From NCBI GenBank assembly GCA_013284265.1, contig JABTBR010000008.1:1-64000 (forward strand): 64,000 bases of DNA, written 5' to 3'. Of the stretch, positions 2,878 to 31,491 are shown piece by piece; positions within the stretch are counted from its first letter, which is position 1; each line of letters opens with the position of its first letter. A model generated the notes under the pieces. It made no database searches. It was not told the DNA's origin and saw nothing but the letters and a program-made list of their open reading frames with translations. The position numbers and the translations under genes are program-made. This stretch comes from Oxalobacteraceae bacterium (GTDB lineage: Bacteria; Pseudomonadota; Gammaproteobacteria; Burkholderiales; Burkholderiaceae_D).

Positions 2878-5706
2878 TCAGGCCTGCAGGCGCTCGCGCT
2901 GTTCCCTGAGCAGCTCGTCGAACTGTGCGCCCGGCATCGGCCGCGCGAACAGATAGCCCTGGCCATAGTCGCAGCCGGCCCCGGCCAGCAGATCGCGCTG
3001 CTCCGGCGTCTCCACCCCTTCGGCGATGACGCGCAGGCCCAGCTTGTGGGCCATCACGATGATCGCGTCCGACAGCGCCATATCGCTCGATTCGGGCGCC
3101 AGGTTGCGGGTGAAGGAGCGGTCGATCTTCAGATAATCGATGTCGAATTTCTTCAGGTAGGACAGCGAGGAATAGCCGGTGCCGAAGTCGTCCAGCGCCA
3201 CCTGGATGCCGGCGTCGCGCAATTGCAGCAGCTTGGCGGTGACGGCCTCGCTGGCGTCGAGCAGCAAGCCTTCGGTGATCTCCACCACCACCGACTGGCC
3301 CGGCAGATCACGCGCCTCGAGCTGCTGCAGCCAGCCCGAATAGCAGCCATCCTCGCGCTGGAATTCCAGCGGCGACTGGTTGACGCTGACCTGGAATTGC
3401 GGATGGTGTTCCAGCCGCCAGCGCTGCACCCATTGCAGCGATTCGCGGAATACCCACTCGCCGATGTCGATGATCAGGCCGCTCGCCTCGGCCAGCGGAA
3501 TGAATTCCAGCGGGCTGACCACGCCGCGCTGCGGATGGTTCCAGCGTATCAGCGCCTCGGCCTTGTGGATGCGTCCGCTGGCCAGATGCACGATGGGCTG
3601 GAAGAACAGTTCGAACTGCTCGCCCTTGAGCGCGCCGCGCAGATCGTTGGTCAGGCGCATGCGGTTCAGCGCCGCCACCTGCAGCACCGGCGTGAAGTAG
3701 CTGAAACGGTTGCGGCCCGCGCCCTTGGCCGCGTACATGGCCTGGTCTGCATGCTTGAGCAAGTCTTCGATGTCGTGGGCGTCGTCGGGGAACAGGGTGA
3801 TGCCGATGCTGGCCGACACGAAAGCCTGCTCCTGGCCCAGGTCGAAGGGCGCCAGCAGGCTGTCGATGATGGACTGGGCCACCCGTTCGACCAGGTCGGC
3901 CTCGTGCAGCTCGGTCAGGATCACGGTGAATTCATCGCCGCCCAGGCGCGCCACCGTGTCCGAGGCGCGCACACAGGCCGAGATGCGGCGCGCCGCGTCG
4001 ATCAGCAGGATGTCGCCCTGATGGTGGCCCAGGGTATCGTTGACTTCCTTGAAGTGGTCCAGGTCGATGAACAGGATGGCCAGGTGGCTGCCGTCGCGGC
4101 GGCACTTGATGATGTCGTGCGCCAGCCGGTCATGGAACATGCGCCGGTTCGGCAACTGGGTCAGGGCGTCGAAATTGGCTTGCTGCCAGATCAGCTCCTC
4201 CGACTGCTTTTTCTCCGTCACATCTTCGATCATGCTCAGGTGATAGGGATGGGCGGCGGCGGCCGCGCCGATGGCGGCCACCGAGGCATCGACCCAGACC
4301 ACCGAGCCGTCCGGGCGCAGCAGGCGCTTGGACAGCTTGTAGCCGGCGCTGCGGCGGGCATTCAGTTCTTCCATATGGATCAATTCGGCCAGCACATCGT
4401 CGGGGTGGCTGATATCGCTCCATTTGCTCGCCTTCATCTGTTCCAGCGAGCGCCCGGCGATGTCCAGATAGCGCTGATTGATGTCGTGGAACTGGCCGCT
4501 GACGGTGTCGATCAGGGCGATGCCCATCGGCGCCGCCTCGAACATGGTGCGGAAGCGCTGCTCGCCCTTGCGGATGGTGTCCTCGGCGCGCTTGCGCTCG
4601 CGCGCCAGCAGGCTGAAGTGGATGGCACCGGCCAGCAACAGCAAGGCGCCGGCGCCGCCGAGCACGCGGTACACCCAGGTCAGGCTGTCGCTGCCCTGAT
4701 CGGCCTGGTACAGGAAGCCGTCGAAGGAGACATTGCGCGGCAGCAGGCCCAGGTCGGCGTACACCTCGGCGATATGGCGCCAGCGCGCCGGGTTCATATA
4801 GCCGATCTCCACCAGCACCGGCTGCACCAGCGGCACCATCTGGCGCGCCTCGTACAGCAGGTGCTGGCGGTCGAAGCGGCGGCTGTATTTGTTCAGGATC
4901 AGCTCGGCCACCTCTTCCTGGTGGCTCATCGCATACTGCCAACCACGCATCGAGGCGGCGCGGAAGGCGCGCACCCGGTCCGGATGGGTATTGAGTTCCT
5001 GCTCGCTGGTAAACAGATTGTCGCCGTAGAAATCGATCCCGGCCGAACGGGGGGTGTAGACATCGTAGGCAAAGCCGATCCGGTCCAGCAGGTCCGGCTC
5101 GTTGGTCACATAGATCGACAGCGCATCGACCTTGCCGCTGACCAGGTCGTCCGGATTATAGGTGTGCTCGACGCGCTGCAGCCGGTAACTGGGGATGCCT
5201 TCCTTCTTCAGGTAGGCCAGCAGCTCATCGGCATGGGTCAGCTCGTCGGTGAGCGAACCTATCATCACGCGCTTGCCGATGATGCGGCGGATATCGGGCT
5301 CGGCACCGCTCTGGCGCATCGCCAGCGCATACGGCGAATGCTGGAAGATCACGCCCAGCACCACCAGCGGCTTGCCGGCCTGGCGCGCCAGCAGCAGGCT
5401 GCTGCTGCCCACGCCGTATTGCGCCTTGCCGGCCAGCACCGCGCGTTCCGGCTCATTGCCGTCGGCTCCCTCGGTCAGGCTGACCTCCAGCCCCGCCTCG
5501 CGGTAATAGCCCTGCTGCACGGCCGCGTAATAGCCGGCGAACTGGAACTGATGGCTGTGCTTGAGTTGCAGGGTGATCTTGTCGAGCGCCTGGGCCGGCA
5601 GCGGCAGCAGCGCGGCGCAGGCCAGCGCCAGCGCGGCCAGAGGGCGCGGCGGCCGGCGCAATGCGCGGACAAGACGGGAGATGGCAGCGGCGGGGTGAAC
5701 GGGCAC
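2878..5706 (-). CDS. Periplasmic NMT1/THI5-like sensor with PAS, GGDEF and EAL domains
   Basis: This is a membrane-bound cyclic-di-GMP turnover protein with a solute-binding sensor. A signal peptide ends near PLPAQA. Next comes a substrate-binding domain of the NMT1/THI5 type ([19 protein letters not shown]), then one membrane helix, a PAS domain, a GGDEF domain with intact RLGGDEF at about residue 590, and an EAL domain with EALIRW at about 715 and VIAEGVET near the end. Both catalytic signatures look intact, so cyclase, phosphodiesterase or both are possible. The start is uncertain: GTG at 5706 or GTG at 5766, neither with a clear ribosome site. The ligand is unknown; relatives of this sensor bind pyrimidine-like or sulfonate-like molecules. 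Confidence 0.9.
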
Positions 5707-27386: not shown

Positions 27387-29420
27387 TCAAATATCCAGCG
27401 GATCAACTTCCAGCGACCACTTCACGCGGCTCTTCATCTGCCGCAGAGTGAGCAACCACTCTCGCAGAAAGTGTTGCAGCGCGGGCCTGGACGGCGACTC
27501 GACCAGCAGCTGGGCACGGTCCACATTGTGTACCCGCGTCATGCTCATCGGAATCGGATCATTGACCGTGATACCAGGATGCTCCATGCAATCGCGCGCC
27601 ATCGTCAAGAATTCGATGGCCGTGGCCAGCTCCGGCGCCTCGGCCCGCAACAGGGCCTGGAACAGATACGGCGGCAAATCCGCCTGCTCGCGCTCCTCCA
27701 GCAAGGCGGTGGCGAAGTGGTCGTAATCGTGATTGACCACCGCCCCATACAGCGGATGCTGGGGATAGCGGGTCTGGATCAGCACCTCGCTGGCGCTGCC
27801 GCCCTCGATCTGGGCCGAGCGCCCGGCCCGGCCCGCCACCTGCATCAGTTGCGCGAACAGGCGCTCACTGGCGCGGTAATCCTGCGAGAACAGCGCCGTA
27901 TCCGGATTCAAAATCCCCACCAGGGTCAGCTTCTTGAAGTCATGGCCCTTGGCGACCATCTGGGTGCCGATCAGGATATCCACTTCGCCCCGGTGCACCG
28001 TATCGAACGCGGCCTGTGCGCTGCCCTTGCGCCGGGTTGAATCGGCGTCGATGCGCAGCACCCGCGCTTCCGGGAACAGCGCCTGCAAACCCTCCTCCAC
28101 GCGCTGGGTGCCACGCCCCAGCGGTTGCAGGTCCACATTGCCGCAAGTCGGGCAATGACGCGGTATGCGCATCTCCAGGCTGCAATGGTGGCAGCGCAGC
28201 CGGTGCTCCGGCTTGTGCAGCACCATGAAGGAGGTGCAGCGGGTGCAATCGCTGATCCAGCCGCAGGACTCGCAGCAGATCACCGGCGCATAGCCGCGCC
28301 GGTTCAGGAACAGCAAGGACTGCTCGCCGCGCTCCATGCGCAGCTTCAGCGCCGCGATCAATTGCGAGGTCAGGCCATCCTTGGGCTTGTCGCGCTCCAT
28401 GTCCAGCAGCGCCACCCGCGGCAGCACGGCGTTGCGCACGGCGCGCTCGCGCAGTTCCAGCTTGCGGTAGCGGCCATTGTGGGCGTGGTGCCAGGTTTCC
28501 AGCGAGGGTGTGGCAGAACCGAGCACGATCGGGATGCGCAACTGCCAGGCGCGCCACACGGCCAGGTCGCGCGCCGAATAGCGCAAGCCTTCCTGCTGCT
28601 TGTAGGAAGGATCGTGCTCCTCGTCGATGACGATCAGTTTCAAATGCGGCAGCGAGGCCAGGATCGCCAGCCGCGTCCCCAAAATAATCCGTGCCTGGCC
28701 CTGGTGCGCGGCCAGCCAGTGCAGCATGCGCTCGCCTTCGGACAGGCTGCTGTGCAGGGTGGCCAGCATCACGCCGGGGAAGCGTGCGCGGATATTGCCT
28801 TCCAGCTGGGGCGTCAGATTGATTTCGGGAACCAGGATCAGGATCTGGCCCTGCGGTTCGCGCGCCAGCACCTGGGCGCAGGCTTGCAGATACACCTCGG
28901 TCTTGCCGCTGCCGGTCACGCCGTACAGCAGGGTGGGGGTGAAGCCGACGGCGCCGCCGATGGCGTCGGCCGCCTCTTGCTGAGCCGGATTGAGTTGGGG
29001 CATGTCGAGCGGGGTGCCGTCGTGCTCATCCTTGAGTTTGGCCAGCTTCTTCAGCGCGCGGTCCAGCGCCACCGTGGTCAGCACGCGCAGATTCTTGGGC
29101 AGGCCGGGCAGGGCCACCTCGCCCAGCGGACGCTGATAGTAGTCGGCGGCAAAGCTGGCCAGCGCCAGCCATTTGTCCGACAGCGGCGACAGCTGGCTGC
29201 GCACGGCCAGCACATCCTTGAGCTTTTCCTCGGGCACCTCGCTCGATTCGGCGATGGCCACGATCAGGCCCATCACCTCGCGCCGGGCGAAGGGCACCAG
29301 CGCCAGCTGCCCCACCTGGGGTAATTCTTCCTGCAAGCCTTGCCAGCGGTAATCGAAGACGGCATTGAGCGGCGTATCGAGCGCGATCTGCAGAATGCAA
29401 TGTGTAGAAATGCCCTGCAT
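27387..29420 (-). CDS. priA: Primosomal protein N' (replication restart helicase PriA)
   Basis: This 677-residue superfamily 2 helicase restarts stalled forks. Walker A is GVTGSGKTEVYL near residue 167 and the DEEHD box is near 264. The zinc region of paired cysteines (CCESCGWISDCTRC, CHHC, CPTC) runs from about 380 to 427. A start as MQGISTHCILQ with the 3'-binding N-terminal domain is complete. Its promoter must lie in the DnaA-box-rich region upstream. Confidence 0.96.
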   Translation of the reverse strand: MQGISTHCILQIALDTPLNAVFDYRWQGLQEELPQVGQLALVPFARREVMGLIVAIAESSEVPEEKLKDVLAVRSQLSPLSDKWLALASFAADYYQRPLGEVALPGLPKNLRVLTTVALDRALKKLAKLKDEHDGTPLDMPQLNPAQQEAADAIGGAVGFTPTLLYGVTGSGKTEVYLQACAQVLAREPQGQILILVPEINLTPQLEGNIRARFPGVMLATLHSSLSEGERMLHWLAAHQGQARIILGTRLAILASLPHLKLIVIDEEHDPSYKQQEGLRYSARDLAVWRAWQLRIPIVLGSATPSLETWHHAHNGRYRKLELRERAVRNAVLPRVALLDMERDKPKDGLTSQLIAALKLRMERGEQSLLFLNRRGYAPVICCESCGWISDCTRCTSFMVLHKPEHRLRCHHCSLEMRIPRHCPTCGNVDLQPLGRGTQRVEEGLQALFPEARVLRIDADSTRRKGSAQAAFDTVHRGEVDILIGTQMVAKGHDFKKLTLVGILNPDTALFSQDYRASERLFAQLMQVAGRAGRSAQIEGGSASEVLIQTRYPQHPLYGAVVNHDYDHFATALLEEREQADLPPYLFQALLRAEAPELATAIEFLTMARDCMEHPGITVNDPIPMSMTRVHNVDRAQLLVESPSRPALQHFLREWLLTLRQMKSRVKWSLEVDPLDI

Positions 29421-30178
29421 TAGTCCTGCCTGTCCTGAAAAATCATGGGTAAAAGCCCTGAATACCTGCCATTGCTGGGGCGCTTTGAAGTATCCACAGA
29501 TTTTGTGGATAACTTTGTGGACAAAGGAAAATTAATTCCGGGAAACGGTCACCTTTCCGCTTGTCCAAGACAGCCAGACCGACAAAAAGCGAAATTTACT
29601 CCCTTTAAAATCAATGACTTAGAAATTGCTTCCTAGGAGAGGGAAAATTAAGTTTTTTCCTCGGCCGCTGTGCATAACTGAAGTATTTAGGCTGTTTTTT
29701 TCTTCGAAATCAAGCTTTTTTTGGTGCCTGAACGGGCTTTATCCACTGTTGCGGCACAGCATGTTAGCAGGCTCTGCAACATCGCGACGCCCCGCATTCT
29801 ACCCAGCTACATTTGGCAAGGTTTGCGCGATGACAAGGGCCTTATCAAGGGGGTATTCTTGCCCAAAAATAGTGCAACGCAGCATAAAACCCCGCCGCCA
29901 ACAGGCAAAAATGTCTAAGTGCCGGTTTACTAAGTACTTTTCATTTTTATCCACAGATTGTGTGGATAACTTTGTGGACAATGGAAGAATCGACCTCTCC
30001 AGCCCTTGGGATAAGGTTTACAACTTGCCTAGTATTGACTGAAACACCATAAAATTAATACTTAATAATCATGCACTTACAAGATGTCTCCGGGCGAGCC
30101 GGATATGTCTGCCTGTTATTTCCGCAGCAAAAAAAATTGTGCATAAGTCGCTTTCACGCACGGGCGTTCAGAATGAAA
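29421..30178. other. Origin-like DnaA-box cluster, gene-free
   Basis: Perfect TTATNCACA boxes lie at 29504-29512, 29669-29677, 29947-29955, 29961-29969 and 30137-30145. One-mismatch boxes lie at 29490, 29516, 29739 and 29973. Two clusters share a 35-base layout (box, inverted box, TTGTGGACAA). An exact IHF consensus (AATCAATGACTTA, 29609-29621) and AT-rich tracts (29590-29720, 30045-30075) lie between. Small open frames here are only the repeats read through. This resembles an oriC or a DnaA-controlled/titrating locus; no dnaA gene is in the window. Confidence 0.65.
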
Positions 30179-30210
30179 AAAGGGCACGTTTCAGGCGAAA
30201 CGTGCCCTTT
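30179..30210 (-). terminator. Rho-independent terminator of hemE
   Basis: A perfect 14-bp stem (AAAGGGCACGTTTC and its complement) with a 4-base loop lies 15 bases past the hemE stop. On the minus strand it is followed by a T-run. It also insulates the DnaA-box region from hemE transcription. Confidence 0.92.
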
Positions 30211-30224
30211 GTTAGCGAGTTACA

Positions 30225-31307
30225 TCAGCCTGCGCGCTGGGCCCGGCTGTAAGTATGCACTGCGTCGACCATCGCCGCGACATTCTCCGGCGGGGTGAAT
30301 TGCGAGATGCCGTGGCCCAGGTTGAACACATGGCCGCTGTCCGCAGCAGGCTTGCCGAAGGCGTCCAGCACCTGATGCACCTGGGCACGGATCTGCTCCG
30401 GTTCGGCGAACAGGATGGCCGGGTCCAGATTGCCCTGCAGACCGACTTTATGGCCGACCTTGGCGCGTGCTTCGCTCAGGTTGACGGTCCAGTCCAGGCC
30501 CACGGCATCGGCGCCGATGTCGGCGATCTGCTCGATCCACTGGCCGCCGCCCTTGGTGAAGACGATGGCGGGGATGCGCACGCCATCCTTGTCACGTTTC
30601 AACAGGGAAACAACTTGCTGCATATATTGAAGCGAGAAGGCCTGGTAAGCGCCATCGGCCAGTGCGCCGCCCCAGGAGTCGAAGATCATCACCGCCTGGG
30701 CGCCAGCATCGATCTGGGCGTTCAGGTAGTCGGCCACCGACTTGGCGTTGATCGCCAGGATGTGGTGCATCAGGTCGGGACGGCTGTACAGCATCTTTTT
30801 AATCGTGTGGAACTCGCGCGAGCCCTGGCCTTCGACCATATAGCAGGCCAGCGTCCACGGGCTGCCCGAGAAACCGATCAGCGGCACCCGGCCATTCAAT
30901 TCGGTGCGGATCTGGGTTACGGCCTTGAACACATAGTCCAGCGTACCCGGTTCCGGCGCGCGCAGGGCCAGCACATCCTGCTCGGTTTGCAGCGGACGCT
31001 CGAACTTGGGACCTTCGCCTTCGACGAAGTACAGGCCCAGGCCCATCGCGTCGGGCACGGTCAGGATGTCCGAGAACAGGATCGCCGCGTCCAGCGGGAA
31101 GCGGTCCAGCGGCTGCAGCGTGACTTCGGTGGCGTAGTCGGAATTGGTGGCCAGGCCCATGAAGGAACCGGCCTTGGCGCGCGTGGCGCGGTATTCCGGC
31201 AGATAGCGCCCGGCCTGGCGCATCAGCCACACAGGCGTGTACTCGGTCGGCTGGCGCAACAGCGCGCGCAAGAAGGTGTCGTTCTGGAGCGGAGCAAATT
31301 GTGGCAT
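30225..31307 (-). CDS. hemE: Uroporphyrinogen decarboxylase
   Basis: HemE removes four carboxyl groups from uroporphyrinogen III to give coproporphyrinogen III in haem synthesis. The 360-residue protein starts [20 protein letters not shown] (ATG at 31307). It has the N-terminal [15 protein letters not shown] signature, the central [11 protein letters not shown] motif and the C-terminal LGHGI motif. It is complete and single, with a strong terminator downstream. Confidence 0.97.
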
Positions 31308-31491
31308 GGGCGGCAATCGAAAGCGGAAAGAAAGCGGCTATTATCGCACCCCGCGCGGCTTTTTTTCTCATAAGCTTAGGCGCCAGCGCGCGCGTTGGCG
31401 GCGGCACAACGCACAATTTCGCTGGATGAATGCCCGCCCTTTCACTATGATGCGTAGCACCGCATTTTTCAGCCCACTTCCCGGAGCCGCC

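Follow-up and report, generated by a model that had tools for sequence, protein, structure and literature searches.

The question raised by this locus is why the gap between hemE and priA should contain a dense cluster of DnaA boxes together with an IHF consensus. A sequence-only reading of the window (the whole stretch of 64,000 nucleotides that was analyzed) had offered three answers, namely the chromosome origin, a second origin, or a DnaA titration or regulatory site for priA. We consider it probable, by analogy with E. coli, that the gap carries a twin (tandem), IHF-coupled element of the DARS type, which would turn ADP-DnaA into ATP-DnaA. The twin element may also tune priA.

The genes on either side of the gap were identified by protein family models, and the features between them are collected in Table 1. 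A putative ORF of 138 aa with a TTG start (29626-30042) overlaps the gap, and no Rfam match at the gathering score was found in 29000-30600. A recount of the 804 bp found all nine of the DnaA boxes that had been claimed, five of them exact matches to TTATNCACA and four with one mismatch, and the IHF consensus reported with them is indeed exact. The boxes resolve into two copies of one module and one stray box. Within each module, box I is followed at +14 by box II in inverted orientation, at +26 by box III, at +119 or +120 by an IHF site and at +179 or +191 by box IV, and the identical internal spacing of 14 and 12 bp bears out the earlier description of two matching groups. The IHF site of module 2 and the place of a box IV in each module go beyond that description. 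Box I of module 1 is 69 bp upstream of the priA ATG, and the second module is 457 bp further upstream. The cluster is not a chance occurrence, as had been surmised: in 1000 copies of this 804-bp stretch drawn from a first-order Markov model there were on average 0.02 exact boxes (maximum 1) and 0.71 one-mismatch boxes (maximum 4), and a total of nine was reached in none of the 1000. Directly before box I in many modules of the family there is also an AAGYRCTTTT-like motif, which in the window falls within 29923-29941.

Table 1. Features of the hemE-priA region, in window coordinates; module offsets are counted from box I.
Feature	Position	Strand	Description
priA, replication restart helicase	27387..29420	-	NCBIfam NF004067 and TIGR00595 over cut-off; Pfam PriA domains
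hemE-priA intergenic gap with the twin element inside	29421..30224	.	804 bp; 44.5% GC, against 62.1% for the whole window
Module 1 DnaA box I	29490..29498	+	GTATCCACA; one mismatch
Module 1 DnaA box II	29504..29512	-	TTATCCACA; exact; +14, opposed to box I
Module 1 DnaA box III	29516..29524	-	TTGTCCACA; one mismatch; 3 bp from box II
Module 1 putative IHF site	29609..29621	+	AATCAATGACTTA; exact consensus; +119; place conserved in relatives
Module 1 box IV	29669..29677	-	TTATGCACA; exact; +179; mean identity 0.99 in 12 aligned sequences including the window
Isolated box	29739..29747	+	TTATCCACT; one mismatch; not conserved in the 12-sequence alignment
Conserved motif just 5' of module 2	29923..29941	.	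CGGTTTACTAAGtacTTTT
Module 2 DnaA box I	29947..29955	+	TTATCCACA; exact
Module 2 DnaA box II	29961..29969	-	TTATCCACA; exact
Module 2 DnaA box III	29973..29981	-	TTGTCCACA; one mismatch
Module 2 IHF-like site	30067..30079	+	AATCATGCACTTA; one mismatch; +120
Module 2 box IV	30138..30146	-	TTATGCACA; exact; +191; mean identity 0.98
Terminator-like hairpin, directly 3' of hemE	30179..30210	-	
hemE, uroporphyrinogen decarboxylase, upstream neighbor	30225..31316	-	TIGR01464 over cut-off

The spacing of the boxes was the first reason to consider a DARS-type element. The text available from PMC8682772 describes the DARS core as three boxes, of which I and II are opposed, and ADP-DnaA molecules bound head-to-head as releasing ADP. 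In E. coli K-12, the boxes of DARS1 are at 1108(+), 1122(-) and 1134(-) of its locus and those of DARS2 at 1636(+), 1650(-) and 1662(-) of its locus, giving both cores the 14/12 spacing that we found here. The likeness to DARS1, which lies between bioD and uvrB, includes the places of the opposed box II and of box III relative to box I, the sequence of box II (TTATCCACA) and an adjoining DNA repair gene (uvrB). However, DARS1 has a single core between its two genes whereas there are two between hemE and priA, and K-12 DARS1 has at best a two-mismatch IHF-like site near +121 whereas that of module 1 here is exact and at +119. The Kosakonia (L216) and Erwinia (L240) loci in our scans are DARS1 itself, with bioD and uvrB on the two sides; in both, the IHF consensus is exact at the place where that of E. 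coli K-12 is degenerate.

DARS2, upstream of mutH, resembles the gap modules in its core spacing, in being coupled to IHF and in having a degenerate second triple, also with 14/12 spacing, 316 bp from the core; according to the parts of PMC4245941 consulted, IHF and Fis activate it, its Fis sites (FBS2-3) are needed, and it matters how far the IHF site is from the core. It differs in the place of its IHF consensus matches, which are at +93 on the minus strand and +109 on the plus strand, compared with +119/120 here. The E. coli DARS2 region (L163) was seen to carry this degenerate triple at 1952, 1966 and 1978, with a one-mismatch IHF site at +119. We file the element in the window as neither DARS1 nor DARS2, as it has neither the single core between bioD and uvrB of the one nor the IHF offsets of the other. 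Based on the geometry of its core we file it as a DARS variant, with a putative recharge activity.

The sequence-only reading had proposed comparison with related genomes, and this showed the boxes to be conserved. A 34-base core pattern (up to 3 mismatches) was found in 73 of 120 relatives; by our hand count these were all 72 genomes of the genus, our own included, and one of the 48 others, which represented one genome per family of the order. A looser pattern was found in 171 of 195 genomes of the family and in 38 of its 44 genera. PriA was located in 73 of the 75 genomes in which it was sought, and the DNA upstream of priA was taken from 20 loci of 19 genera, picked by hand, 18 of which had already matched the looser pattern. 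At these chosen loci a core was present upstream of priA in 19 of 20 by a loose rule (up to 5 mismatches, with up to 2 in boxes II-III) and in 16 of 20 with up to 2 mismatches. The IHF consensus, with up to one mismatch, was at +118 to +120 in 18 of the 20, and at least two modules (core plus IHF site) were present in seven, with four modules in L152. The distance from module 1 to priA was short and nearly constant across many genera. In an alignment of 12 sequences (the window, ten other members of the genus and Duganella sp. BJB476, L229), both cores matched the window with a mean identity of 0.92, the values for box IV being those in Table 1, and the two IHF sites with 0.85 and 0.74, compared with 0.61 for the whole gap. 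The better conservation of the cores, box IV and IHF sites in these sequences supports the DARS-type reading.

The core extends well beyond the family. A generic form, TTATCCAC-N6-TGTGGATAA-N3-TGTG with up to 2 mismatches, occurred in 306 of the 370 class genomes sampled, whereas the one altered spacing that served as the control (N7 in place of N6, which lengthens the I-II spacing by 1) was present in 10 of 370, a difference that also argues for the DARS-type reading. A reversed pattern gave no match among the rows listed, a weak control since reversal breaks the boxes. In a sample of the phylum the generic core was found in 211 of 397 genomes. The core thus reaches past the class, since by hand count 68 of these genomes, many of family f229, lie outside it; the same hand count found the core in none of the 22 genomes of f241 and none of the 13 of f238, two families outside the class. 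Within the order, 12 of the 15 genomes of family f49 were without it (counted by hand). Some of the matches listed for the phylum sample, from genomes of the class, are 30-mers that coincide letter for letter with the cores of E. coli DARS1 and DARS2.

The place of the IHF site was assessed in named genomes by a scan that sought boxes II-III followed 75-105 bp later by the IHF consensus, with box I not required. This gave at least 120 matches at at least 117 loci, which are not a random sample; many rows are MAGs, and the names attached to L224 and L305 are non-proteobacterial, that of L296 alphaproteobacterial. Among the matches listed, the gap was 88-93 bp (6 of the 31 allowed distances) in 114 of 120, and box I, with up to 2 mismatches, was at -14 in 83 of 120, compared with 4 of 1080 at nine other offsets. 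This fixed place of the IHF site, together with the box I that the scan did not require, is a further reason for the DARS-type reading. The neighbors of the 120 matches listed (tblastn, within 1500 bp) were priA in 31, xseA in 35 and uvrB in 4; 32 were near none of priA, xseA, uvrB and mutH, and 18 of the 120 were within 1 kb of the end of their locus, so that the neighbor could not be judged. Among 29 core loci from other genomes, 27 of them from outside the order, priA adjoined the core in six (L169, L171, L172, L173, L175 and L194). In L169 and in G075 (L205), hemE is also kept beside the priA element.

The genome itself encodes Hda (TIGR03420 over cut-off), and ADP-DnaA is therefore expected to build up after each round of replication. 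Its DnaA has 53% identity to that of E. coli and keeps the equivalents of Asp269 (the sensor-1 Asp), Arg285 and Leu290. If the element works as in E. coli, ADP-DnaA would assemble on box I, its opposed partner box II and the neighboring box III, and IHF would introduce a bend at a set distance of about 120 bp from box I. Head-to-head contact between DnaA molecules would then release ADP, and the apo-DnaA would take up ATP, such that the level of ATP-DnaA would be raised before initiation at a true oriC located elsewhere. Box IV may contribute as the IHF bend closes a loop. We infer the binding of the proteins, the exchange of nucleotide, its timing and any role of box IV from the E. coli systems.

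Several observations count against the DARS-type reading. The AID1 residue Arg227 is replaced by His in the DnaA of this genome. The IHF offset is unlike that of E. coli DARS2, and the site near the equivalent place in K-12 DARS1 has two mismatches. The core is missing from some groups, such as most of family f49. Boxes II and III form a 3-bp double box of a kind known at promoters, according to the sections of PMC11317965 available, and the short, near-constant distance between module 1 and priA is as would be expected of an operator.

These last two points are also the basis of a different explanation, that the element is mainly a DnaA-controlled operator at which DnaA and IHF repress or activate priA with the replication cycle, any recharging being incidental. 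We regard this as unlikely. It would fit the position of module 1 just before the priA ATG, similar in many genera, and the double box: in the modules, boxes II and III are 3 bp apart and in one direction, like the double boxes that, in the portion of PMC11317965 seen, DnaA also uses at E. coli promoters. The same portion lists uvrB, which is downstream of E. coli DARS1, as a DnaA-repressed gene. However, the gap modules add to the double box an opposed box I and a fixed IHF site, and the spacing of this box I is conserved even though it lies outside any double box. There is also a full second module 457 bp upstream of the first, L152 has four modules, and the core with its IHF site is found at genes other than priA. 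The promoter consensus scan, which is weak evidence, found no promoter-like site on the priA strand and two weak sites, both on the opposite strand. That the distance to priA is short and similar in many genera does suggest a second role of the DARS-type element in priA transcription, which can be likened to that of DARS1 at uvrB, given the repression reported in PMC11317965 as far as its available text goes. The earlier interpretation as a whole is upheld in part: its proposal of a DnaA regulatory site tied to priA comes close to the reading preferred here, that of a DARS-type element in place of simple titration.

An element like E. coli datA, which would titrate DnaA or promote hydrolysis of its ATP with IHF, is distinctly improbable. 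The gap has DnaA boxes with IHF sites in a non-coding stretch, and datA, a regulatory site that is not an origin, also has boxes and an IHF site (from the part of PMC4245941 available), but no 14/12 triple was found among the E. coli datA boxes with up to 2 mismatches, whereas both gap modules have one and their geometry is that of DARS.

The core is repeated elsewhere in this genome. On contig C56, four tandem cores are upstream of xseA (C56:97,699-98,283, equal to L195 9699-10283) and are accompanied at +52 by an oppositely directed IHF consensus (0-1 mismatch), an arrangement found in 15 of the 16 xseA copies read in five genomes of the family; the offset of about +119 seen for the xseA copies of the named-genome scan was a requirement of that search. 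Arrays resembling the C56 cores were seen at XseA-like genes in L201, L202, L207 and L208. On contig C138 (L196), cores at 4669 and 6026, each with an exact IHF consensus at +119, flank a PAS gene with a weak response-regulator match, and core pairs resembling these were observed in L203, L204 and L206. Among the stretches examined, the densest 700 bp contained 13 boxes in C107, 13 in C56, 11 in C69 and 9 in the window. The C69 group (C69:70,517-71,084, equal to L197 15517-16084) has 11 boxes, 2 of them exact, in DNA of 44-47% GC; mnmG is about 19 kb away and a parS with one mismatch is at C69:60,995. This group is a candidate for the oriC of this genome. The C107 group (C107:12,910-13,457, equal to L198 9910-10457), with 13 boxes, 4 exact and nearly all in one direction, is also a candidate origin. 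Arrays of CTTATNCAC-like repeats in the same direction were noted in G021 (L041) at 380,575-380,751 and 391,729-392,302, one of them beside a GlmU-like gene.

The GC-skew analysis that had been proposed as a check on the origin was carried out in six relatives: 400 kb each of G021, G030 and G190, 20 stretches of 20 kb spread around the chromosome of G046, and 20 stretches each of G145 and G254. Skew was weak and irregular in five of the six, giving no clear answer in G030, G046 and G145, and was clear only in G190, a member of the same family with a contig of 2.47 Mb. Over the 400 kb read, its cumulative skew was lowest at 270,692, and from that point onward the skew stayed positive throughout the stretch. 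At 271,630 there is an exact parS, mnmG-rsmG-parA-parB begin at 271,684 and dnaA ends near 286 kb; mnmG, rsmG, parB, dnaA and priA were confirmed, while the ParA-like ORF fell below the cut-offs of its models. A one-mismatch parS is at 207,260. The densest box group of the stretch (270,876-271,480) has six one-mismatch boxes and none that is exact, and three other places have five. The priA element of G190, at 525,782-525,969, is 255 kb from the skew minimum and in steady positive skew, so that this relative keeps the element at a distance from that origin.

The results from other genomes were mixed. In the part of G021 read (0-400 kb), cumulative skew was lowest at 169,443, closer to the priA cluster at 196 kb than to dnaA at 36 kb, which counts against a non-origin reading, and in G254 the skew changed sign at 540-620 kb, near priA (495.6 kb) and far from dnaA. 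The cluster is 93-236 kb from dnaA in the 17 genomes of the genus that have both on one contig; mnmG and the cluster are 222 kb apart in G021 and on separate contigs in our genome (mnmG on C69). The dnaA of our genome has one exact and one one-mismatch box immediately upstream. No parS with up to one mismatch was found in the window, in 0-400 kb of G021 and G030, or in L004, L005, L080, L091, L106, L198, L199 and L200. In C. metallidurans CH34, the passages available from PMC2864759 describe 213 nt containing three perfect boxes, followed by the skew switch at 90 kb from dnaA, and this stretch may or may not be the element described here. The skew check divides, with the G190 minimum speaking against an origin at the gap and the weak skew of the genus and the G021 minimum leaving some room for it. 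The high density of boxes, the IHF consensus, the low GC, the one exact and one one-mismatch box at dnaA, and the skew of G021, G254 and CH34 (the last within the limits of that source) would all suit an origin. Nevertheless, we hold it to be very unlikely that the gap is either the chromosome origin or a second one, as had been suggested, because the module is repeated at several loci of its own genome, has the geometry of the E. coli DARS sites, which are not origins, and is exceeded in box density at C107, C56 and C69, and because in G190 the skew minimum, exact parS, mnmG-rsmG-parA-parB and the six-box group (a weak point, given the three places with five) lie 255 kb from the priA element.

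DARS elements have so far been described for E. coli and its relatives in the text available from PMC4245941 and PMC5742627. The former gives the DARS2 core as conserved specifically in gammaproteobacteria related to E. coli, and the latter, a review, gives DARS conservation as E. coli-proximal beta- or gammaproteobacteria. We found no earlier description, in the open-access literature, of a twin-core DARS-type element with IHF near +119, linked to priA, in betaproteobacteria. A DARS-like layout is present beside repair or restart genes in many beta- and gammaproteobacteria. We tentatively suggest that a DARS core with an IHF site about 120 bp from box I could be an ancestral beta- and gammaproteobacterial element for recharging the initiator, wired to the control regions of priA, xseA and uvrB such that recharging is coupled to restart and repair, and that DARS1 of E. 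coli K-12 may be a derivative from which the IHF site was lost. Should the pattern seen across the class prove functional, initiator recharging would be a general layer of cell-cycle control, it would follow a simple sequence rule that is testable in many species, and the control of initiation would be tied to restart and repair genes.
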